Below, piece after piece: positions 1 to 60,935 of a stretch of DNA of 64,000 nt. The position numbers and the translations under genes are program-made. The DNA comes from Dyadobacter fermentans (lineage in GTDB: Bacteria; Bacteroidota; Bacteroidia; Cytophagales; Spirosomataceae), in contig NZ_JAHXBN010000014.1 of the NCBI RefSeq assembly GCF_019924045.1, positions 62,001-126,000 of the forward strand. Reading direction: 5' to 3'. The stretch's first letter is position 1. Each line of letters begins with the position of its first letter. The notes beneath the pieces were generated by a model. That model saw nothing but the letters and a program-made list of their open reading frames with translations, had not been told where the DNA came from and ran no database searches.

Positions 1-748
1 TGCGGTGGAGGTATTCCAGGCCTTCATTGATCTGGAAATTGTCGAAACTGATATGCAGGTTCTTATATTGCTGCACGAGCGGAAGCACATACCGCTGCTC
101 GTTCCAAACGGCGCCGGTGAGCAATAGCGGCAAATAGGGGTGACGGATCAGAAATTCCTCCACATCCTCCCAGGTACCGAGCTCGCTGGCGGTGGTGATG
201 GTCAGTGTTTTTGTTTTACTCAAATGCGCAAACAAAGGTGTACAATGACGCGCTTTCCAGTCCCAAGCATTGGTTTTCGGATGAATGCTCACTGCACTGA
301 CGTGATGTTCCGACATCAACTTGCCTAACTGGCCAGGCTCCGGAAACTCGCCCGTCTGGTGCGGCATCACATTCCAGATCGGGAACAGGTGCGGATAAGG
401 CTTAATTATCCGGTTCAGTTCCAGGTTGGAGTACATCAGATCATAATTGACCGACTGTGTGTAAGCCACCAGCGCCGCCGAAATGGAGCACTGGTCCATG
501 TCCTTCAAGAGATCGTCCAGCTTCCATTTTTCAGCCGGATGTTTATACTTACGCGGACCAATGCGGGTGAAGCCGTCAAAATACAGCAGCCGATCCCTGA
601 CAACTTCATGACTACCCCTGACTACCTCCTGACCACTCCTGACTACGTCCCGGCCTCCGATAACAAACCCCGGCAAAACCGTCGCCCCTGCGCTTAAAAT
701 GGCATTGGTTTTCAGGAAATCACGGCGGCTAAATGGCTGTTGCGGCAT
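1..748 (-). CDS. Tat-exported amidohydrolase-like protein (3' end outside window)
   Basis: About 249 codons are visible, starting at the ATG complementary to 746-748 and running off the left edge. The N-terminus has a Tat signal (SRRDFLKTNAILSAGA, about residues 7-22), so the protein is probably exported folded. The rest resembles the amidohydrolase-2 TIM-barrel family: motifs such as LFPIWNVMPHQTGEFPEPG and an SFDNFQINEG stretch fit barrel strands. The usual metal-binding DxHxH start of strand 1 is replaced by FDGFTRIG, so the metal site may be degenerate; the C-terminal part needed to judge this is missing. Between signal and domain lies a repetitive linker (VVRSGQEVVRGSHEVV) encoded by the TGAC decamer repeat at 596-653. 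It is last in a three-gene minus-strand run, 12 bp after the HiPIP gene. Export is fairly sure; the substrate is unknown. Confidence 0.7.
   Translation of the reverse strand, partial: MPQQPFSRRDFLKTNAILSAGATVLPGFVIGGRDVVRSGQEVVRGSHEVVRDRLLYFDGFTRIGPRKYKHPAEKWKLDDLLKDMDQCSISAALVAYTQSVNYDLMYSNLELNRIIKPYPHLFPIWNVMPHQTGEFPEPGQLGKLMSEHHVSAVSIHPKTNAWDWKARHCTPLFAHLSKTKTLTITTASELGTWEDVEEFLIRHPYLPLLLTGAVWNEQRYVLPLVQQYKNLHISFDNFQINEGLEYLHR
596..653 (+). repeat. Intragenic TGAC short tandem repeat
   Basis: Four to five units of 10-12 bp, such as TGACTACCCC and TGACCACTCC, lie on the plus strand inside the minus-strand amidohydrolase gene. They are the same repeat family as the intergenic arrays at 15382, 21141, 49430 and 59439. 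Read on the coding strand they give no stop and encode a linker rich in Val, Arg, Gly and Ser. Confidence 0.85.
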
Positions 749-14076: not shown

Positions 14077-15384
14077 ATGTATTTAAAAAACAGCATTTCA
14101 AAAATCATTGCAACGGGCAGTTTGGCCCTGTGGACGCTAGCAGTGGCCGCGCAAAATGGAGAAACCTATCTGCCCACGGCGACACCCGATCGCATTGTGC
14201 TCAATGTGACGGCCGACCCGTCGACTTCGATGGCAGTCAACTGGCGAACTTCCGAGGCTATTACGGAAGGCTTCGCCGAGATCGCCGTGGCGGAGGCCGA
14301 CCCCCGGTTTGTGTCGAAGGCTAAAAAACTCAAAGCCAATACCCAAAAACTCGTTTGGGAGGATACGCCCACGGCCCACTACCATTCCATTATTTTCGAA
14401 AACCTGCAACCCGGTACCAAATATGCGTACCGGGTCGGCGGGGAACAAGGGTGGAGTGAATGGATCCATTTCACCACCGCGGGTACCCGCGACCAGAAGC
14501 TGTCTTTTATCTATTATGGTGATGTTCAGGTGAATATTTCTTCGCTATGGTCGCGTGTGGCGCGTGAGGCCTACGCGAAAGCGCCCGACGCGCGCCTGGC
14601 CATCTACGCGGGCGACCTGATCAACAAAGCCAACCGCGACGTGGAATGGGGCGACTGGTTCCGCGGCGGGGGCTTCATCCATTCCATGATCCCGGCGTTC
14701 CCGACGCCCGGCAACCACGACCATTTCGATACGCCCGAAGGTGTTAACACGACTTCCGTATTCTGGCGGCCGCAGTTTACCCTGCCCGAAAACGGTCCGA
14801 AAGGATTGGAGGAGACCTGCTACTATGCAGATGTTCAGGGGGTAAGGTTCATTTCATTAAACTCGGATCAGGTAGATGTTTCCGAGAAATGGACGAAGGT
14901 GCAGGAGGAGTGGCTGGAAGGCATTCTCCAAAACAACCCGCACAAATGGACGGTGATTACTTTCCACCACCCGATTTTTTCGCCCAAAACCACCCGCGAT
15001 AACAAACGTATGCGGGAGACTTTCAAGCCGTTGTTCGACAAATACAAAGTCGACCTCGTACTGCAAGGCCACGATCACACCTACGCACGCGGCATGGCCA
15101 ACATCCCGATGGACGGCAAAGGGGTACGGTCAGGAACGATGTACGTGGTATCCGTCAGCGGGCCGAAAATGACAGATTCCAATGTGGACCGTGCTGCCTG
15201 GATGGACCGCTCGGCCATTTATACCCAACTTTTCCATGTGGTGAATGTTGAAGGCAATAAGCTGTCATTCGATACCTATACGGCCACCGGAGAGCTGTAC
15301 GACGCATTTGATTTGATTAAACAAAAGGGAAAGATTAACCGCATCGTAGAACGCGTTCCGGCGAACGTATCCGAACGACACTGA
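14077..15384 (+). CDS. Purple acid phosphatase-like metallophosphoesterase
   Basis: A 435-residue exported protein with a Sec signal (GSLALWTLAVAA), an N-terminal fibronectin-like domain of the purple acid phosphatase type (about 30-130, TADPSTSMAVNWRTSEAITE), and a calcineurin-like catalytic domain. Metal motifs in order: YYGDVQVN (~147), YAGDLINKAN (~176), PTPGNHDHFD (~210), TFHHPIFSP (~295) and LQGHDHTYARG (~330). They predict a two-metal phosphomonoesterase or phosphodiesterase outside the cytoplasm. It follows the SusD gene by 25 bp and is likely in that operon, so the imported ligand may be dephosphorylated outside the cell. Its TGA stop is also the first TGA of the decamer array that fills the next gap. 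Confidence 0.9.
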   Translation: MYLKNSISKIIATGSLALWTLAVAAQNGETYLPTATPDRIVLNVTADPSTSMAVNWRTSEAITEGFAEIAVAEADPRFVSKAKKLKANTQKLVWEDTPTAHYHSIIFENLQPGTKYAYRVGGEQGWSEWIHFTTAGTRDQKLSFIYYGDVQVNISSLWSRVAREAYAKAPDARLAIYAGDLINKANRDVEWGDWFRGGGFIHSMIPAFPTPGNHDHFDTPEGVNTTSVFWRPQFTLPENGPKGLEETCYYADVQGVRFISLNSDQVDVSEKWTKVQEEWLEGILQNNPHKWTVITFHHPIFSPKTTRDNKRMRETFKPLFDKYKVDLVLQGHDHTYARGMANIPMDGKGVRSGTMYVVSVSGPKMTDSNVDRAAWMDRSAIYTQLFHVVNVEGNKLSFDTYTATGELYDAFDLIKQKGKINRIVERVPANVSERH

Positions 15385-15580
15385 CATACCCGACCACGCT
15401 TGACCATCCCTGACAATACCTGACCACGCTTGACAATACCTGACTACCCCTGACAATACCTGACCACGCTTGACAATACCTGACTACCCCTGACCATCCC
15501 TGACCACACTTGACAATACCTGACCACGCTTGACCACACCTGACCACCCCTGACAATACCTGACCACTTCTGACCATACC
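15382..15580 (+). repeat. TGAC decamer array, 20 units, filling the intergenic gap
   Basis: From 15391 to 15580 there are 19 uninterrupted 10-bp units, preceded by one 9-bp unit that includes the stop codon of the phosphatase gene. All except the first full unit begin TGAC; variants include TGACCACGCT, TGACAATACC, TGACTACCCC and TGACCATCCC (consensus TGACHAYNNY). The next gene's ATG is at 15582, so the array is the whole 5' untranslated region. The plus strand has stops in all frames; the minus strand is open. Confidence 0.95.
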
Positions 15581-15581
15581 T

Positions 15582-16499
15582 ATGAAACGCATCGCCCTTT
15601 TTGTTTCTTCCGTTCTGCTGGGGACGTCATTGCTAATGGCGTTACGCGTGCCGGTTTCCGACGAATTCCCCTCTGAAATAGTCAAATTCAAGGCATATTC
15701 TGGTAATCCGCTCTTCCAGGGGACCGGCGACCCGCAAACCTGGGACGAGAAAATCCGCGAACGCGGCTACATCTTGCGCGAGGGGAACAAGTACTACATG
15801 TGGTACACCGGCTACACGAAAGCGACCGGTAATGATATGAAATACCTCGGCCTGGCTACTTCCGATGATGGGTTGAAATGGACGCGTCACCCGAAAAACC
15901 CGATTCATACTTCGCTGTGGGTGGAGGATATGTGCGTGGTAAAGGAAGGCGGTACCTATTATATGTTCGCTGAAAGCAAAGACGATATCGCCCATTTGCT
16001 CACCTCCACCGACCGCATCCGATGGAAGGATCAGGGCGCTATCGACATCCGCCTCAAAAACGGTTCGCCCATCAGCAAAGGACCTTATGGGACACCGACA
16101 GTCTGGAAGGAAAAGGGCACCTGGTACCTCTTTTATGAACGCAACGACGCCGCGGTGTGGCTTGCCACGAGCAAAGACCTTAAAACGTGGACGAACGTAC
16201 AGGACGAACCGGTGCTGAATGCAGGCCCCGAAAAGTATGACGCGTTTGCCGTCGCATTCAACAAGATTATCCAATATAAAGGCCTTTACTATGCCTATTA
16301 CCATGCGTCGGCATTCAAGGACTGGCGTGAGTGGACAATGAATGTGGCCGTTTCGAAAGACCTCGTCCATTGGAGCAAATACGAAGGAAACCCCATCGCC
16401 GGTAACGATTCTTCCAGCGGATTCCCGGTTTTCGACGGCAAGCAATGGCGGTTTTACACCATGCACCCCGATGTACGGGTTTACTTCCCCGAAAAATAG
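15582..16499 (+). CDS. Secreted five-bladed beta-propeller glycosidase-like protein
   Basis: A 305-residue protein with a Sec signal (MKRIALFVSSVLLGTSLLMA). Repeated blades with the pattern 'Y-x-M-W-Y-T-G' and 'S-x-D-G-L-K-W' (KYYMWYTGYTKATG, SDDGLKWTRHPKNPI, STDRIRWKDQG, SKDLKTWTNVQ, SKDLVHWSKYEGNPI) are those of the GH43/GH32/GH117-type five-bladed propellers. Candidate acidic catalytic residues are present (for example DMCVVKEGGTYYMFAESKDD), but the exact family cannot be fixed by eye. It starts 2 bp after the decamer array and shows no ribosome-binding site. A terminator hairpin follows the gene, so it may be its own unit or the end of the upstream operon. Confidence 0.78.
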   Translation: MKRIALFVSSVLLGTSLLMALRVPVSDEFPSEIVKFKAYSGNPLFQGTGDPQTWDEKIRERGYILREGNKYYMWYTGYTKATGNDMKYLGLATSDDGLKWTRHPKNPIHTSLWVEDMCVVKEGGTYYMFAESKDDIAHLLTSTDRIRWKDQGAIDIRLKNGSPISKGPYGTPTVWKEKGTWYLFYERNDAAVWLATSKDLKTWTNVQDEPVLNAGPEKYDAFAVAFNKIIQYKGLYYAYYHASAFKDWREWTMNVAVSKDLVHWSKYEGNPIAGNDSSSGFPVFDGKQWRFYTMHPDVRVYFPEK

Positions 16500-21118: not shown

Positions 21119-21283
21119 ACCTGACCATTTCATACCCACTTGACCACCCCTGACAATACATGACCACCCCTGACCATTCTGACCCACTTGCCCACCCTTG
21201 ACAATACATGACCACCCTTGACCATTTCTGACCCATTTGACCACCCTTGACAATACATGACCACCCTTGACCATTCCAAACCC
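21119..21283 (+). repeat. TGAC repeat array with 48-49 bp higher-order units
   Basis: After a partial unit there are three copies, starting at 21141, 21189 and 21238, of a block of five short units (TGACCACCCC, TGACAATACA, TGACCACCCC, TGACCATTC, TGACCCACT and variants). The third copy runs into the ATG at 21284. Same family as the array at 15382 but with compound periodicity. Confidence 0.93.
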
Positions 21284-22501
21284 ATGACCCAATCAAGAAC
21301 GAGAAGAGATTTCATTGCAACAGGCCTTGCCGCCATGGCAGGAGCGGGGCTTTCTGCCGCATTTTCACCGGCATTCGGACAGGCAGTGCGCCCGGCCGAC
21401 AGGATCCGCCTCGGCATCATCGGTACCGGCTCGCGCGGCGCCGGCCTGGCCACGCTTATACGCGAAATGCCCGACTATGAGCTGGTTGCCTGCTGCGATA
21501 TCATCCCCGAAAATTTGCAAAAAGGACTGAGCCTCGCCGCCCAAAATGCCAAAGGCTATACCGATTACCGCAAGTTGCTCGATGACAAATCCATCGACGC
21601 CGTGGTGATCGCCACGCCGCTTTACCTGCATTACCCGATGGCCGTGGCCGCATTGCAAGCCAGGAAACACATTTACCTCGAAAAATCGATGACGTACGAC
21701 ATCCCCCAGGCGATCGACCTCGTAAAGAAGGTGAAGGCTTCGGGACTCGTGTTTCAGATCGGTTACCAGTACCGGTATTACGGCCTTTACCATCGGGTGA
21801 AAGAGATCATGAAGGAAAACTGGCTGGGCAAGATCACGCATTTCGAATGCCAGTACAACCGCAACTCCAACTGGCGCTTCCCGGTGAAGGACCCTAAAAT
21901 GGAACGCGCGATCAACTGGCGCATGTACCGCGAGTACTGCGGAGGTCCGCTCTCGGAGCTTTGCGCACATGAGATCGACGTTGTGAATTACCTCACCGAC
22001 AGCCGCCCGGTAAAGGTGGTGGGCCTGGGAGGCATCAACTATTGGAAAGACGGCCGGGATACTTACGATAACATTCGCACGGTTTACGACTATCCCAACG
22101 GCGTGAAAGCCAGCGTAACCTCGGTGTTATCCAACGCCTATAATGGTTACAGCATTCGCATTCTGGGCGATAAAGCGACAGTCGAGATCCTCCGCGACAA
22201 AGCGCTCATTTATCCTGAAATCACGAACAATGCCAAAGGCGTCGTGGATGGTGTTACCGGTGCGACCATTGCCGTGACCACCCAGGGCAAAGGCGTGGAA
22301 GTGAAGTTCGGAAAGCCGGGCGAAGCGGAACTGGAACCTACCGTGTTCGCATTGAAGGACTTCGCAGAATGTATCAGAAACAAAAAAGAGCCCATTTCCA
22401 ACGTAGAAACCGGGCGTGATGGCTCTATTGCCATTCACATGGGCAATGCGGCGGCCGATACCGAGAAAGTACAGTATTGGAAACCTGAATATTCGGCCTG
22501 A
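21284..22501 (+). CDS. Tat-exported Gfo/Idh/MocA family oxidoreductase
   Basis: A 405-residue protein from the ATG at 21284, the first codon after the repeat array. The Tat signal is RTRRDFIATGLAAMAGAG. The Rossmann domain follows (IRLGIIGTGSRGAGLATLIR), with the EKSMTYDIPQA segment matching the EKP-type motif of the family (here EKS) and a C-terminal alpha/beta domain (GGPLSELCAHEIDVVNYL). Such enzymes oxidise or reduce sugars and related alcohols with tightly bound NAD(P); Tat export allows the folded, cofactor-loaded enzyme to work in the periplasm. The stop overlaps the ATG of the ApbE gene by one base, so the two are coupled. Confidence 0.9.
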   Translation: MTQSRTRRDFIATGLAAMAGAGLSAAFSPAFGQAVRPADRIRLGIIGTGSRGAGLATLIREMPDYELVACCDIIPENLQKGLSLAAQNAKGYTDYRKLLDDKSIDAVVIATPLYLHYPMAVAALQARKHIYLEKSMTYDIPQAIDLVKKVKASGLVFQIGYQYRYYGLYHRVKEIMKENWLGKITHFECQYNRNSNWRFPVKDPKMERAINWRMYREYCGGPLSELCAHEIDVVNYLTDSRPVKVVGLGGINYWKDGRDTYDNIRTVYDYPNGVKASVTSVLSNAYNGYSIRILGDKATVEILRDKALIYPEITNNAKGVVDGVTGATIAVTTQGKGVEVKFGKPGEAELEPTVFALKDFAECIRNKKEPISNVETGRDGSIAIHMGNAAADTEKVQYWKPEYSA

Positions 22502-59351: not shown

Positions 59352-59369
59352 GGGGGCATGGGCGTGGAC

Positions 59370-59546
59370 CATTGACCGTCGACCGCTGACCGCTGACCGC
59401 TGACCATGGACCGCCGACCGCCGACCATGGACCATTTCTGACTACACATGACCTACTGACTATTCTTGACCTACTGACTACACATGACCTACTGACTATT
59501 CCTGACCTACTGACTACACATGACCAACTGACTATTCTTGACCCAT
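59370..59546 (+). repeat. TGAC repeat array with 36-bp higher-order units
   Basis: Three 36-bp units begin at 59439, 59475 and 59511, each made of TGACTACACA, TGACCTAC, TGACTATTCT and TGACCTAC (10+8+10+8 bp, with small variants in the last). They are preceded (59370-59435) by a GC-richer block with 7-bp GACCGCT units. The array ends 27 bp before the ATG of the next gene. Confidence 0.93.
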
Positions 59547-59573: not shown

Positions 59574-60935
59574 ATGAACAACAATACCTCTGAGCCCCAA
59601 CAGAATCGTCGTGACGCTTTGAAAATGCTGGGAGCGGGATCGGCAGCCGGGCTGCTCGGCCTGCTCGGTTCGGCAGACCGCGCTCATGCGCATGACATGC
59701 AACCCGCGTATGCGAGGGGCATGGCACCGGTGAAAATCAAGAGCGTGAAAGCGATCGTCACCGCCCCCCAGGGCTCCAACCTGATCGTCGTGAAAGTGGA
59801 AACCACCGAGCCGGGCTTGTACGGGCTTGGCTGCGCTACTTTTACTCAGCGTGCTTTTGCGGTGGTGACGGCGATCGATACTTATCTCAACGAATTCTGC
59901 GTAGGCAAGGATGTCGACAACATCGAAGACATGTGGCATTCGACCTACGTGAGTTCCTACTGGCGCAACGGCCCGGTGCTGAACAATGCATTGAGCGGGC
60001 TCGATGAGGCACTCTGGGATATCAAAGGCAAGCGCGCCGGTATGCCGGTGTACCAGTTGCTGGGCGGTAAGGCACGGTTTGCGATACCGTGTTACACCCA
60101 CGCCAATGGTAACACGCCCGAGGCAGTGGCCGATGACGTCCAGCGGATTATGGACCGGGGTTTCAAGTACATCCGCATTCAGCAGGGCGGCTATGGTGCC
60201 GTGGGCGCTACCGAGCAGAAGCCGGATTTCAAAGCAGCGGGTTTTGGCGGGACCACGGATAACTATATGAATGAACGGGCGTATCTGAAATCGGTTCCGA
60301 AGCTTTTTGAAGCGGTGCGGAAGCGCTGCGGCGAGGATATCGAGTTGTTGCACGACATCCACGAGCGTGTGCAGCCGATGGACGCCATTAACATGATCAA
60401 GGCGCTGGAAGCGTACCGGCCTTTTTTCATTGAAGATCCATTCTCGCCTGAAAACATGGGCTGGTTCCGTCAGCTGCGGCAAAGTACCACCGTTCCGATA
60501 GCCATGGGCGAGTTGTTCAACAACGTGAACGAATTCCGCGACCCGATGGCCAACCAATGGTTCGATTATATCCGTTGCCACGTGTCGCAGATCGGCGGCA
60601 TTACACCGGCCATGAAAGTGGCACGGCTGGGCGAGTGGTTTAATATCAAAACAGCCTGGCATGGGCCGGGCGACGTTTCGCCGGTGGGCCACGCTGCGCA
60701 TGCGCATGTCGATCTCGCTGTCTGGAACTTCGGGATCCAGGAGGCTGTAAGCTTCAACGACAAGACCCTGGCGATTTTCAAGGGTTGCCCGACGATGAAG
60801 GATGGGTATATGTCGGTGAACGAGGTGCCGGGACTGGGCGTGGATATTGATGAAAAAGAAGCCGCGAAGTATCCGATCACAAGCAAATCCAACTGGCAGG
60901 TTCGTAAATTTGACGGTACGAGCATCCGGCCATAA
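59574..60935 (+). CDS. Tat-exported mannonate dehydratase-like enolase-superfamily protein
   Basis: A 453-residue protein with a Tat signal (NRRDALKMLGAGSAAGLLG, about 11-29). The mature part matches the ManD/RspA group of acid-sugar dehydratases: LDEALWDIKGKRAGMPVYQL in the capping/barrel junction, CYTHANGNTPEAV, metal ligands in LLHDIHERVQP (Asp), FFIEDPFSPENMG (Glu) and IAMGELFNN (Glu), and HGPGDVSPVGHAAHAH near the end. Such enzymes remove water from aldonic acids such as mannonate or gluconate with Mg2+. Cytoplasmic location is the norm, so a Tat signal is unusual. It follows the PQQ dehydrogenase gene, whose product could make the aldonate substrate. Substrate identity is not proven. 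Confidence 0.88.
   Translation: MNNNTSEPQQNRRDALKMLGAGSAAGLLGLLGSADRAHAHDMQPAYARGMAPVKIKSVKAIVTAPQGSNLIVVKVETTEPGLYGLGCATFTQRAFAVVTAIDTYLNEFCVGKDVDNIEDMWHSTYVSSYWRNGPVLNNALSGLDEALWDIKGKRAGMPVYQLLGGKARFAIPCYTHANGNTPEAVADDVQRIMDRGFKYIRIQQGGYGAVGATEQKPDFKAAGFGGTTDNYMNERAYLKSVPKLFEAVRKRCGEDIELLHDIHERVQPMDAINMIKALEAYRPFFIEDPFSPENMGWFRQLRQSTTVPIAMGELFNNVNEFRDPMANQWFDYIRCHVSQIGGITPAMKVARLGEWFNIKTAWHGPGDVSPVGHAAHAHVDLAVWNFGIQEAVSFNDKTLAIFKGCPTMKDGYMSVNEVPGLGVDIDEKEAAKYPITSKSNWQVRKFDGTSIRP

Follow-up and report, generated by a model that had tools for sequence, protein, structure and literature searches.

Why should the entire gap between two adjacent genes consist of decamers beginning with TGAC? The window, that is, the whole 64,000-nt stretch of Dyadobacter fermentans DNA analyzed here, contains such an array on its plus strand at 15382–15581. 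An initial annotation described the array as perfect and as the entire leader of the downstream gene, with a 10-bp period that would keep every TGAC on nearly the same face of the helix.

The TGAC array and its flanking genes

The array opens with a 9-bp unit, TGACATACC (15382–15390), whose first TGA is the stop codon of the upstream gene, and continues through 19 decamers (15391–15580) and a single T to the ATG at 15582, wholly occupying the 197-bp gap between two same-strand genes. TRF detected it (best score 264). As originally described, the array is real and its 10-bp phase runs without slip from 15391 on, but it is not perfect: the decamer at 15391 begins with CGAC, such that TGAC heads 18 of the 19 decamers and 19 of the 20 units. 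Its 200 nt contain 81 C and 24 G, and its RNA is structure-poor (MFE −1.3 kcal/mol, z 0.69), in agreement with the little structure that had been proposed. No Rfam covariance model matched positions 15000–16000 at E≤0.1.

The upstream gene (14077–15384, plus strand) is an ORF for a purple acid phosphatase-like metallophosphoesterase (Pfam PF16656/PF00149). The downstream gene (15582–16499, plus strand), whose ATG starts 1 bp past the array, encodes a glycosyl hydrolase 43/32-like (GH43/GH32) protein (PF04616/PF00251), and its seven closest named relatives are all from Dyadobacter. A TonB receptor gene and a SusD-like gene precede these two (Pfam) and, because of these neighbors, the four genes probably constitute one operon. 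The promoter-like motif TAnnTTTG is absent from 15001–15700 and TTTG is absent from the array itself, while the gap between the same two genes, judged by eye, is only ~45 bp in the relatives L121 and L123. For these reasons, the array looks like an intercistronic spacer, and the proposal that it forms the entire leader of a gene is doubtful.

Distribution of the arrays

We searched for five TGACs at 10-bp spacing, with the reversed pattern as control. The 8.0-Mb window genome (G000) contains 440 matches (216+224) and none of the reversed pattern; with these counts and the TRF score, the array is not a chance occurrence. It also occurs in relatives, since 33 of the 48 genomes of the genus match the pattern, with 1 to 440 matches each and no control match. 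Counts are uneven even among close species (440 in G000, 3 in G028). Of 200 genomes sampled from the family, 36 contain the pattern, 22 of them Dyadobacter, and any genome outside this genus has at most 9 matches. A sample of the phylum gave 3 genomes of 392 (the window's own, G575 and G232); in this sample, one genome had two matches to the reversed control. The unit in G575 is different and G-rich. The distant genome G232, from another family, contains two TGAC-h-A-y arrays (C7:12458 and C22:53701), either by transfer or by convergence. The consensus of the decamer unit is TGAC-h-A-y-n-C-n.

Several contigs of the G000 draft end in or beside TGAC arrays (the end of C116, the start of C131, the end of C105 and the start of C100), which may make the array copy numbers of this draft unreliable. 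Locus L220 of G016 matches both the end of C116 and the start of C131.

Architecture of the array-bearing intergenic regions

Arrays of at least 4 units were mapped in three sets of sequence: the window, 800 kb of contig C9 and 40 additional loci selected because they carry arrays. These loci were picked, on either strand, among the TGAC matches listed (~100 of 440), with 40 of 118 candidate regions scored. Genes were called with our own hexamer-score caller in place of the annotation (659 genes, 90% coding in the 800 kb). Only gaps of ≥60 bp flanked by two called genes enter the counts of intergenic regions (IGRs), which excludes arrays at contig ends with no second gene. The background for IGR types comprises the 252 gaps of ≥100 bp in the 800 kb of C9.

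Arrays of 4–33 units form the arms of a paired architecture. Under the 4-unit rule, 33 of the 51 array-bearing IGRs have arrays in both orientations, nine have plus arrays only and nine have minus arrays only, the window array being a single, unpaired plus arm. In all 33 paired IGRs, the minus array lies on the left and the plus array on the right, and the TGAC strand thus reads outward into both neighbors, regardless of gene direction. Eight of the 18 single-arm IGRs have an opposite run of 2–3 units, and all eight keep the polarity of the pairs. The same polarity was found in 18 of 18 pairs at loci of G016, G031, G043 and G044, which are partly orthologous to the G000 set. No common center between the paired arms could be recognized by eye in 16 gaps inspected.

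The arrays are also unevenly placed with respect to genes. Divergent IGRs are depleted (4/51, compared to 80/252 in the background, p 0.0003), and convergent IGRs are enriched (12/51, compared to 22/252, p 0.006). The outer edge of an array is at a median distance of 16 bp from a gene 3′ end (n=49) and of 43 bp from a gene 5′ end (n=35), with edges facing 3′ ends being the more numerous. Orphan arms in tandem gaps point in the direction that a polar roadblock would permit, leaving the gap into the gene, in 9 of 14 cases. The view of the window array as a one-off gene leader is not supported by this architecture, in which most IGRs carry the array as one arm of an inverted pair and divergent IGRs are depleted.

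A compositional rule of gaps was considered and rejected: at 73 array-free 3′ ends, TGAC reads outward 19 times and inward 21 times with no G-poor bias, and at 135 array-free 5′ ends it reads outward 29 times and inward 41 times. Array-free gaps are G-poor only in the last 20–40 nt before starts.

Other unit families share the architecture

A tandem-repeat scan of the C9 gaps identified the further families TAAGCNN/NNGCTTA, AGTTTAG/CTAAACT, AGGAGG/CCTCC and GACCGCC/GGCGGTC, and GAATGATT/ATTCAATC is another family among the gap arms. The unrelated units TAAGC, GACCGCC and AGGAGG build a paired architecture like that of TGAC. As families with 7- and 8-bp units share this architecture, the helical phase of a 10-bp period cannot generally account for it. 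Arms of one gap are mostly of one family. Across 58 gaps, the arm-to-arm complementarity is 16.1 for arms of the same gap, compared to 9.8 (sd 0.75) for permuted arms, and none of 20000 permutations was as high; for the 19 gaps without TGAC, the values are 15.1 and 7.2. The exceptions, with own scores of 3–5, have unmatched or mixed arms. Two families are nested in mirror order in C9 at 762.9k and in L115.

Polarity is set per family. By eye, 19 of 19 neighboring TARGC pairs among the matches listed are plus followed by minus, and the polarity of GACCGCC is the reverse of that of TGAC. A universal rule in which the G-rich strand comes first is broken by GACCGCC (by eye) and there is, thus, no such rule. 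Stop codons in all frames were also rejected as the reason for the unit sequences; they are present for TGAC, but TAAGC has TAA/TAG on the other strand (by eye). The vocabulary differs between species: the TGAC/TARGC matches number 251/0 in G044, 0/122 in G015, 3/78 in G028 and 440/114 in G000, and TARGC is present in 14 of the 48 genomes of the genus.

One gap of the window combines two families: a GACCGCT heptamer array (59366–59433, plus strand) on the left side of the IGR is followed on the right by a TGAC array whose spacing alternates between 10 and 8 bp (59438–59543, plus strand) and by an ATG at 59574 (TRF, sequence, gene calls). The arms of this gap are unmatched. In a Siphonobacter locus (L126), head-to-head heptamer-like arrays were seen by eye at ~2825–2950 and 958–1153, one of them directly before an ATG; their units are of the GAAAACAGCAAACC type, and GGCAGTC/GGCTATA with TAAAGCC.

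Array growth and constraint on the core

Copy number at the window site changes between species, as had been suggested. The comparison covers four loci (L119, L120, L121 and L123, with L122, L124 and L125 left out). Against the 20 units of the window, L120 (93% protein identity) has five, the last two of which are the same as those of the window, L119 (D. jiangsuensis) has seven TGAC units, and one or two are present in each of L121 and L123. In unit lattices that require TGAC at their ends and, thus, miss broken end units (as also in the core-difference and single-mismatch counts below), the similarity is 0.51 for units two apart and 0.55 for units four apart, compared to 0.37 for neighbors and 0.38 between arrays. 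Because units at even steps are alike, whereas neighbors are only as similar as units of other arrays, growth seems to have proceeded in steps of 20–40 bp.

In units aligned between G000 and G016, with columns drawn from 12 of 15 orthologous IGRs (three gave no in-phase columns), the T, G, A and C of the core differ in 0.7, 2.9, 0.7 and 2.2% of cases. Position 6 (A) differs in 3.0%, position 9 in 9.5% and the other four positions in 28–33%, with 13% in the flanks. As misaligned units could mimic such a contrast between core and spacer, we recounted on units with exactly one mismatch. Of 115 aligned units, 30 have one mismatch, none of them in TGAC (12 expected) and 25 in the four free positions. 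The TGAC core is therefore maintained, either by selection or by a copying process sparing the spacer. Such constraint is what a recognized site would show and, in this respect, fits the protein-binding array proposed at the outset. The core is equally intact in single arms (0.950) and in paired arms (0.948), so that its preservation is not due to pairing in cis.

Close species with and without arrays at the same gene pair provide natural comparisons. At one convergent gene pair, the arrays of G000, G016 and G044 flank a terminator that is shared with array-free species, among them G009, G011 and G026, and a TAAGC pair is found at the same place in G003, G028, G031 and G043 (by eye). At a second convergent pair, also inspected by eye, the array-free loci L196, L198, L199 and L203 have a simple terminator, which is missing in seven array-bearing relatives; the G028 array there has only about two and three units, and other array-free species have different hairpins or neighbors. 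Elsewhere, a paired gap is almost unchanged between G000 (L110:2300–2476) and G016 (L240:2064–2240), with no difference in 108 in-phase columns, while the surrounding 6 kb are 88.5% identical.

Predicted folding and terminators

The 28 paired IGRs examined for predicted folding are far more stable than their shuffles, with a median z of −7.7 and 27 values below −3. In L100, for example, one stem is predicted across nearly the entire gap (MFE −101 kcal/mol, z −7.2). The median z is −3.7 for single-arm gaps (9/16 below −3). For the array-free controls, comprising 12 convergent gaps, the first 25 tandem gaps and the first 25 divergent gaps, it is −4.9 (8/12 below −3), −2.0 (9/25) and −1.3 (5/25), respectively. 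Convergent gaps are thus predicted to fold well even without TGAC arrays.

Intrinsic terminators are rare at 3′ ends that face paired TGAC arrays (3/48, compared to 93/464 elsewhere, p 0.019). In this comparison, 3′ ends that share an IGR are not independent, and the finder accepts loops of 3–10 nt only and misses long-loop hairpins, such as that at C9 443k. By IGR type, the deficit has p 0.078 for convergent and p 0.021 for tandem gaps. A short stem with a U-tract, as expected of an intrinsic terminator, had no match at the other 45 of the 48 paired 3′ ends, and no U-tract was noticed after the arrays in the gaps inspected. The terminator deficit and the folding are consistent with elements that end or protect transcripts at the borders of genes in place of such terminators.

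An origin of the arrays from terminator arms, with TGAC as a usual terminator stem, was rejected, as TGAC occurs in 3 of 99 terminator 3′ arms. Locus-specific compensatory pairing is likewise unsupported within the TGAC family, whose arms are not more complementary within a locus than between loci (p 0.77 for the inner 44 nt, p 0.21 for longer stretches).

Comparison with known repeats

We file the Dyadobacter arrays with the heptamer repeats of Xanthomonas, Nostoc and the Beggiatoaceae, and the TGAC decamer as a new form of this kind. The initial annotation knew of no named element with this form, which is half correct, as kindred heptamer classes are described in two reports (PMC4692102, PMC4679880).

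According to the first of these, GGGAATC in Xanthomonas and GGGGA(C/T)T in Nostoc form many intergenic short-unit arrays, most near-gene copies lie within 50 bp of the gene, and copies are under-represented between divergent genes (PMC4692102). Close to gene ends the G-rich strand points into the gap, coinciding with the coding strand where the copy is downstream of the gene and with the non-coding strand where it is upstream; GGGAATC forms convergent inverted pairs, 70 in one genome and 75 in another (PMC4692102). The report also states that most heptamer repeats keep the same flanking genes while the arrays vary, that transcripts in Xanthomonas start or stop in quadruplex-capable copies more than in controls, and that the function of the Xanthomonas repeat is still to be found (PMC4692102). 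The likeness lies in a rule of layout, comprising the position at gene ends, inverted pairs and few divergent gaps. Dyadobacter follows this rule, with intergenic short-unit arrays in many copies, in which the G-richer strands of the inverted pairs are convergent. The heptamers are G-tract units for which quadruplexes offer an explanation, and inverted pairs are few in Nostoc. In contrast, the Dyadobacter unit is 10 bp long, combines a constrained core with a spacer that is free to vary and almost devoid of G, and does not correspond to GGGAATC or GGGGATT. The TGAC and TAAGC consensus sequences have no fixed run of three Gs, unlike the Xanthomonas unit, and Dyadobacter has several unrelated unit families per genome, the two arms of a locus being mostly matched.

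TAACTGA direct repeats are reported from marine Beggiatoaceae, some Cyanobacteria and five Bacteroidetes, with 169 direct sets of 2–6 copies and one inverted repeat in a Beggiatoaceae genome and up to 43 copies in some Bacteroidetes and Cyanobacteria (PMC4679880). They too are intergenic short-unit arrays, many of which end ~1 nt before a start codon, their forward reading gives stop codons and they have no RNA structure of their own. They differ in being heptamers and mostly direct sets, and are not reported to have a core/spacer pattern. The Dyadobacter unit sequences do not match the TAACTGA heptamer.

REP/BIME and REPIN sequences are also abundant intergenic inverted repeats near gene ends, with proposed roles at transcript ends. 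However, they are single palindromes of 20–40 bp, rather than oligomer arrays of 4–33 units as in Dyadobacter. A link to RAYT, the Y1 transposase associated with such repeats, was not seen by eye, as PF01797 is present in 47 of the 48 genomes, with 0–8 copies in the 15 array-free ones. The cyanobacterial STRR repeats constitute a further known class of short tandem repeats. BrickBuilt of Porphyromonas gingivalis is a MITE with a 23-nt minisatellite, a leader and a tail (PMC4596501). It shares with the Dyadobacter arrays the phylum Bacteroidota, an intergenic tandem array and inverted ends, but it is one defined element, whereas no common center was seen by eye in the 16 Dyadobacter gaps inspected. 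No paper on such arrays in Dyadobacter was found among the titles and abstracts of the open-licence literature.

Possible functions

We tentatively favor, as possible but somewhat short of probable, the reading that the TGAC arrays are gene-boundary (3′-end) elements made from oligomer arrays, of which the window array would be one arm. A paired element would act as a two-way transcription boundary and as a 3′-end structure, replacing or surrounding an intrinsic terminator. A transcript across the pair is predicted to form one very long imperfect hairpin, in which the shared core would let any unit pair with any other, such that the stem could survive changes in copy number, and interrupted pairing would avoid long perfect palindromes. 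The arrays would arise from one- or two-unit seeds through duplications of 20–40 bp. The window has the outward plus arm alone, in a probable operon, where this hairpin would be impossible; its direct effect would be a longer intercistronic spacer, with ~197 nt of untranslated RNA, poor in G and rich in UGA, where the gap had been short. We consider the window copy most likely to be an expanded orphan arm within the operon gap. Counting against the gene-boundary reading, 18 of the 51 IGRs, including that of the window, are single-armed, several IGRs mix families, and array-free convergent gaps and single-arm gaps also fold well. In addition, the depletion of divergent gaps could reflect mere tolerance of insertions.

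The arrays could instead be neutral or selfish satellites without a host function, whose inverted oligomer seeds spread, grow through slippage and persist only at gene ends, where they are tolerated. We regard this as somewhat unlikely, yet as a serious rival. The very uneven counts between close species, the species-specific unit families, the even-step similarity that indicates duplication in 20–40 bp steps and the change from 5 to 20 units between close relatives at the window site all speak for satellites, and one ancestral inverted element per family would give a fixed polarity. However, a constrained core with a free spacer is unexpected under neutral slippage, and the matching of arms across unrelated families, the terminator deficit at paired 3′ ends and the lack of a visible transposase link are further points against them. 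Because TGAC arms match no better within a locus than between loci and single arms keep the core, pairing in cis does not seem to explain everything, and a factor that reads the core on DNA or RNA is another serious rival. In one form of this, a sequence-specific protein on the TGAC core in DNA would act as a polar roadblock, allowing polymerase to exit the gap into the gene but not the reverse. Ribbon-helix-helix proteins, such as plasmid ParR and omega, bind direct-repeat arrays, and the core constraint in single arms, the fixed outward polarity and the permissive direction of most orphan arms in tandem gaps are consistent with such a protein. Nevertheless, we consider it unlikely, as the candidate protein is only hypothetical, several unit families per genome would require several proteins, GACCGCC has the opposite polarity and 9 of 14 is near even.

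Control of the downstream gene by a leader array, through cooperative protein binding or translation tuned by copy number, was the original proposal. The array does stop 1 bp before the ATG, varies in copy number among relatives and has unstructured RNA, and the largest single category of TAACTGA repeats in the Beggiatoaceae genome studied ends 1 nt before a start codon (PMC4679880). Even so, arrays of this class face 5′ ends no more often than 3′ ends and are depleted between divergent genes, and there is no promoter-like TAnnTTTG in or near the array at 15382–15581, which makes a leader very unlikely. Rho loading prefers C-rich, G-poor RNA, and, with the outward polarity, transcripts leaving the gap carry the C-rich sequence; the C-rich, unstructured window array could, in principle, load Rho and end transcripts that enter the neighboring gene from the gap. 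The chance of this appears remote, since arrays also occur in the sense strand just before start codons and would silence the gene there, and the skew of the GACCGCC family is reversed (by eye).

A broader version of the gene-boundary reading would be a general, convergently evolved code in bacteria, written around gene ends in mirror-image arrays of species-specific oligomers (TGAC decamers, TAAGC heptamers and others) whose core is read one way by a trans-acting factor. We consider this decidedly unlikely; if true, transcription could pass out of a gap into a gene but would be barred in the opposite direction, and the quadruplex formation proposed for Xanthomonas would be incidental.

The function of the short-unit intergenic arrays of Xanthomonas, Nostoc and Beggiatoaceae is not agreed upon. 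Dyadobacter combines unrelated units, several families per genome, matched arms and a measurable core constraint under one layout. Because this Xanthomonas-like layout is built from unrelated units, quadruplexes alone are unlikely to explain such arrays in general. Should the arrays be transcript boundaries, they would represent a large class of bacterial 3′-end elements that finders of stem and U-tract terminators would not be expected to catch.

Other arrays in the window

A second, degenerate TGAC array, of plus orientation only, was located at 21122–21284 (plus strand; TRF, sequence, Pfam). It extends into the beginning of a Gfo/Idh/MocA gene, for which the call starts at 21257 and an alternative in-frame ATG lies at 21284, and is preceded by an intrinsic-terminator-like hairpin (by eye). 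A five-unit TGAC array at 595–650 (plus strand; TRF, sequence, gene call) lies in a minus-strand coding region, ~100 bp past the start of the gene called at 1–748, where it is read in the stop-free GTCA sense. This repeat would be translated, perhaps as a linker.
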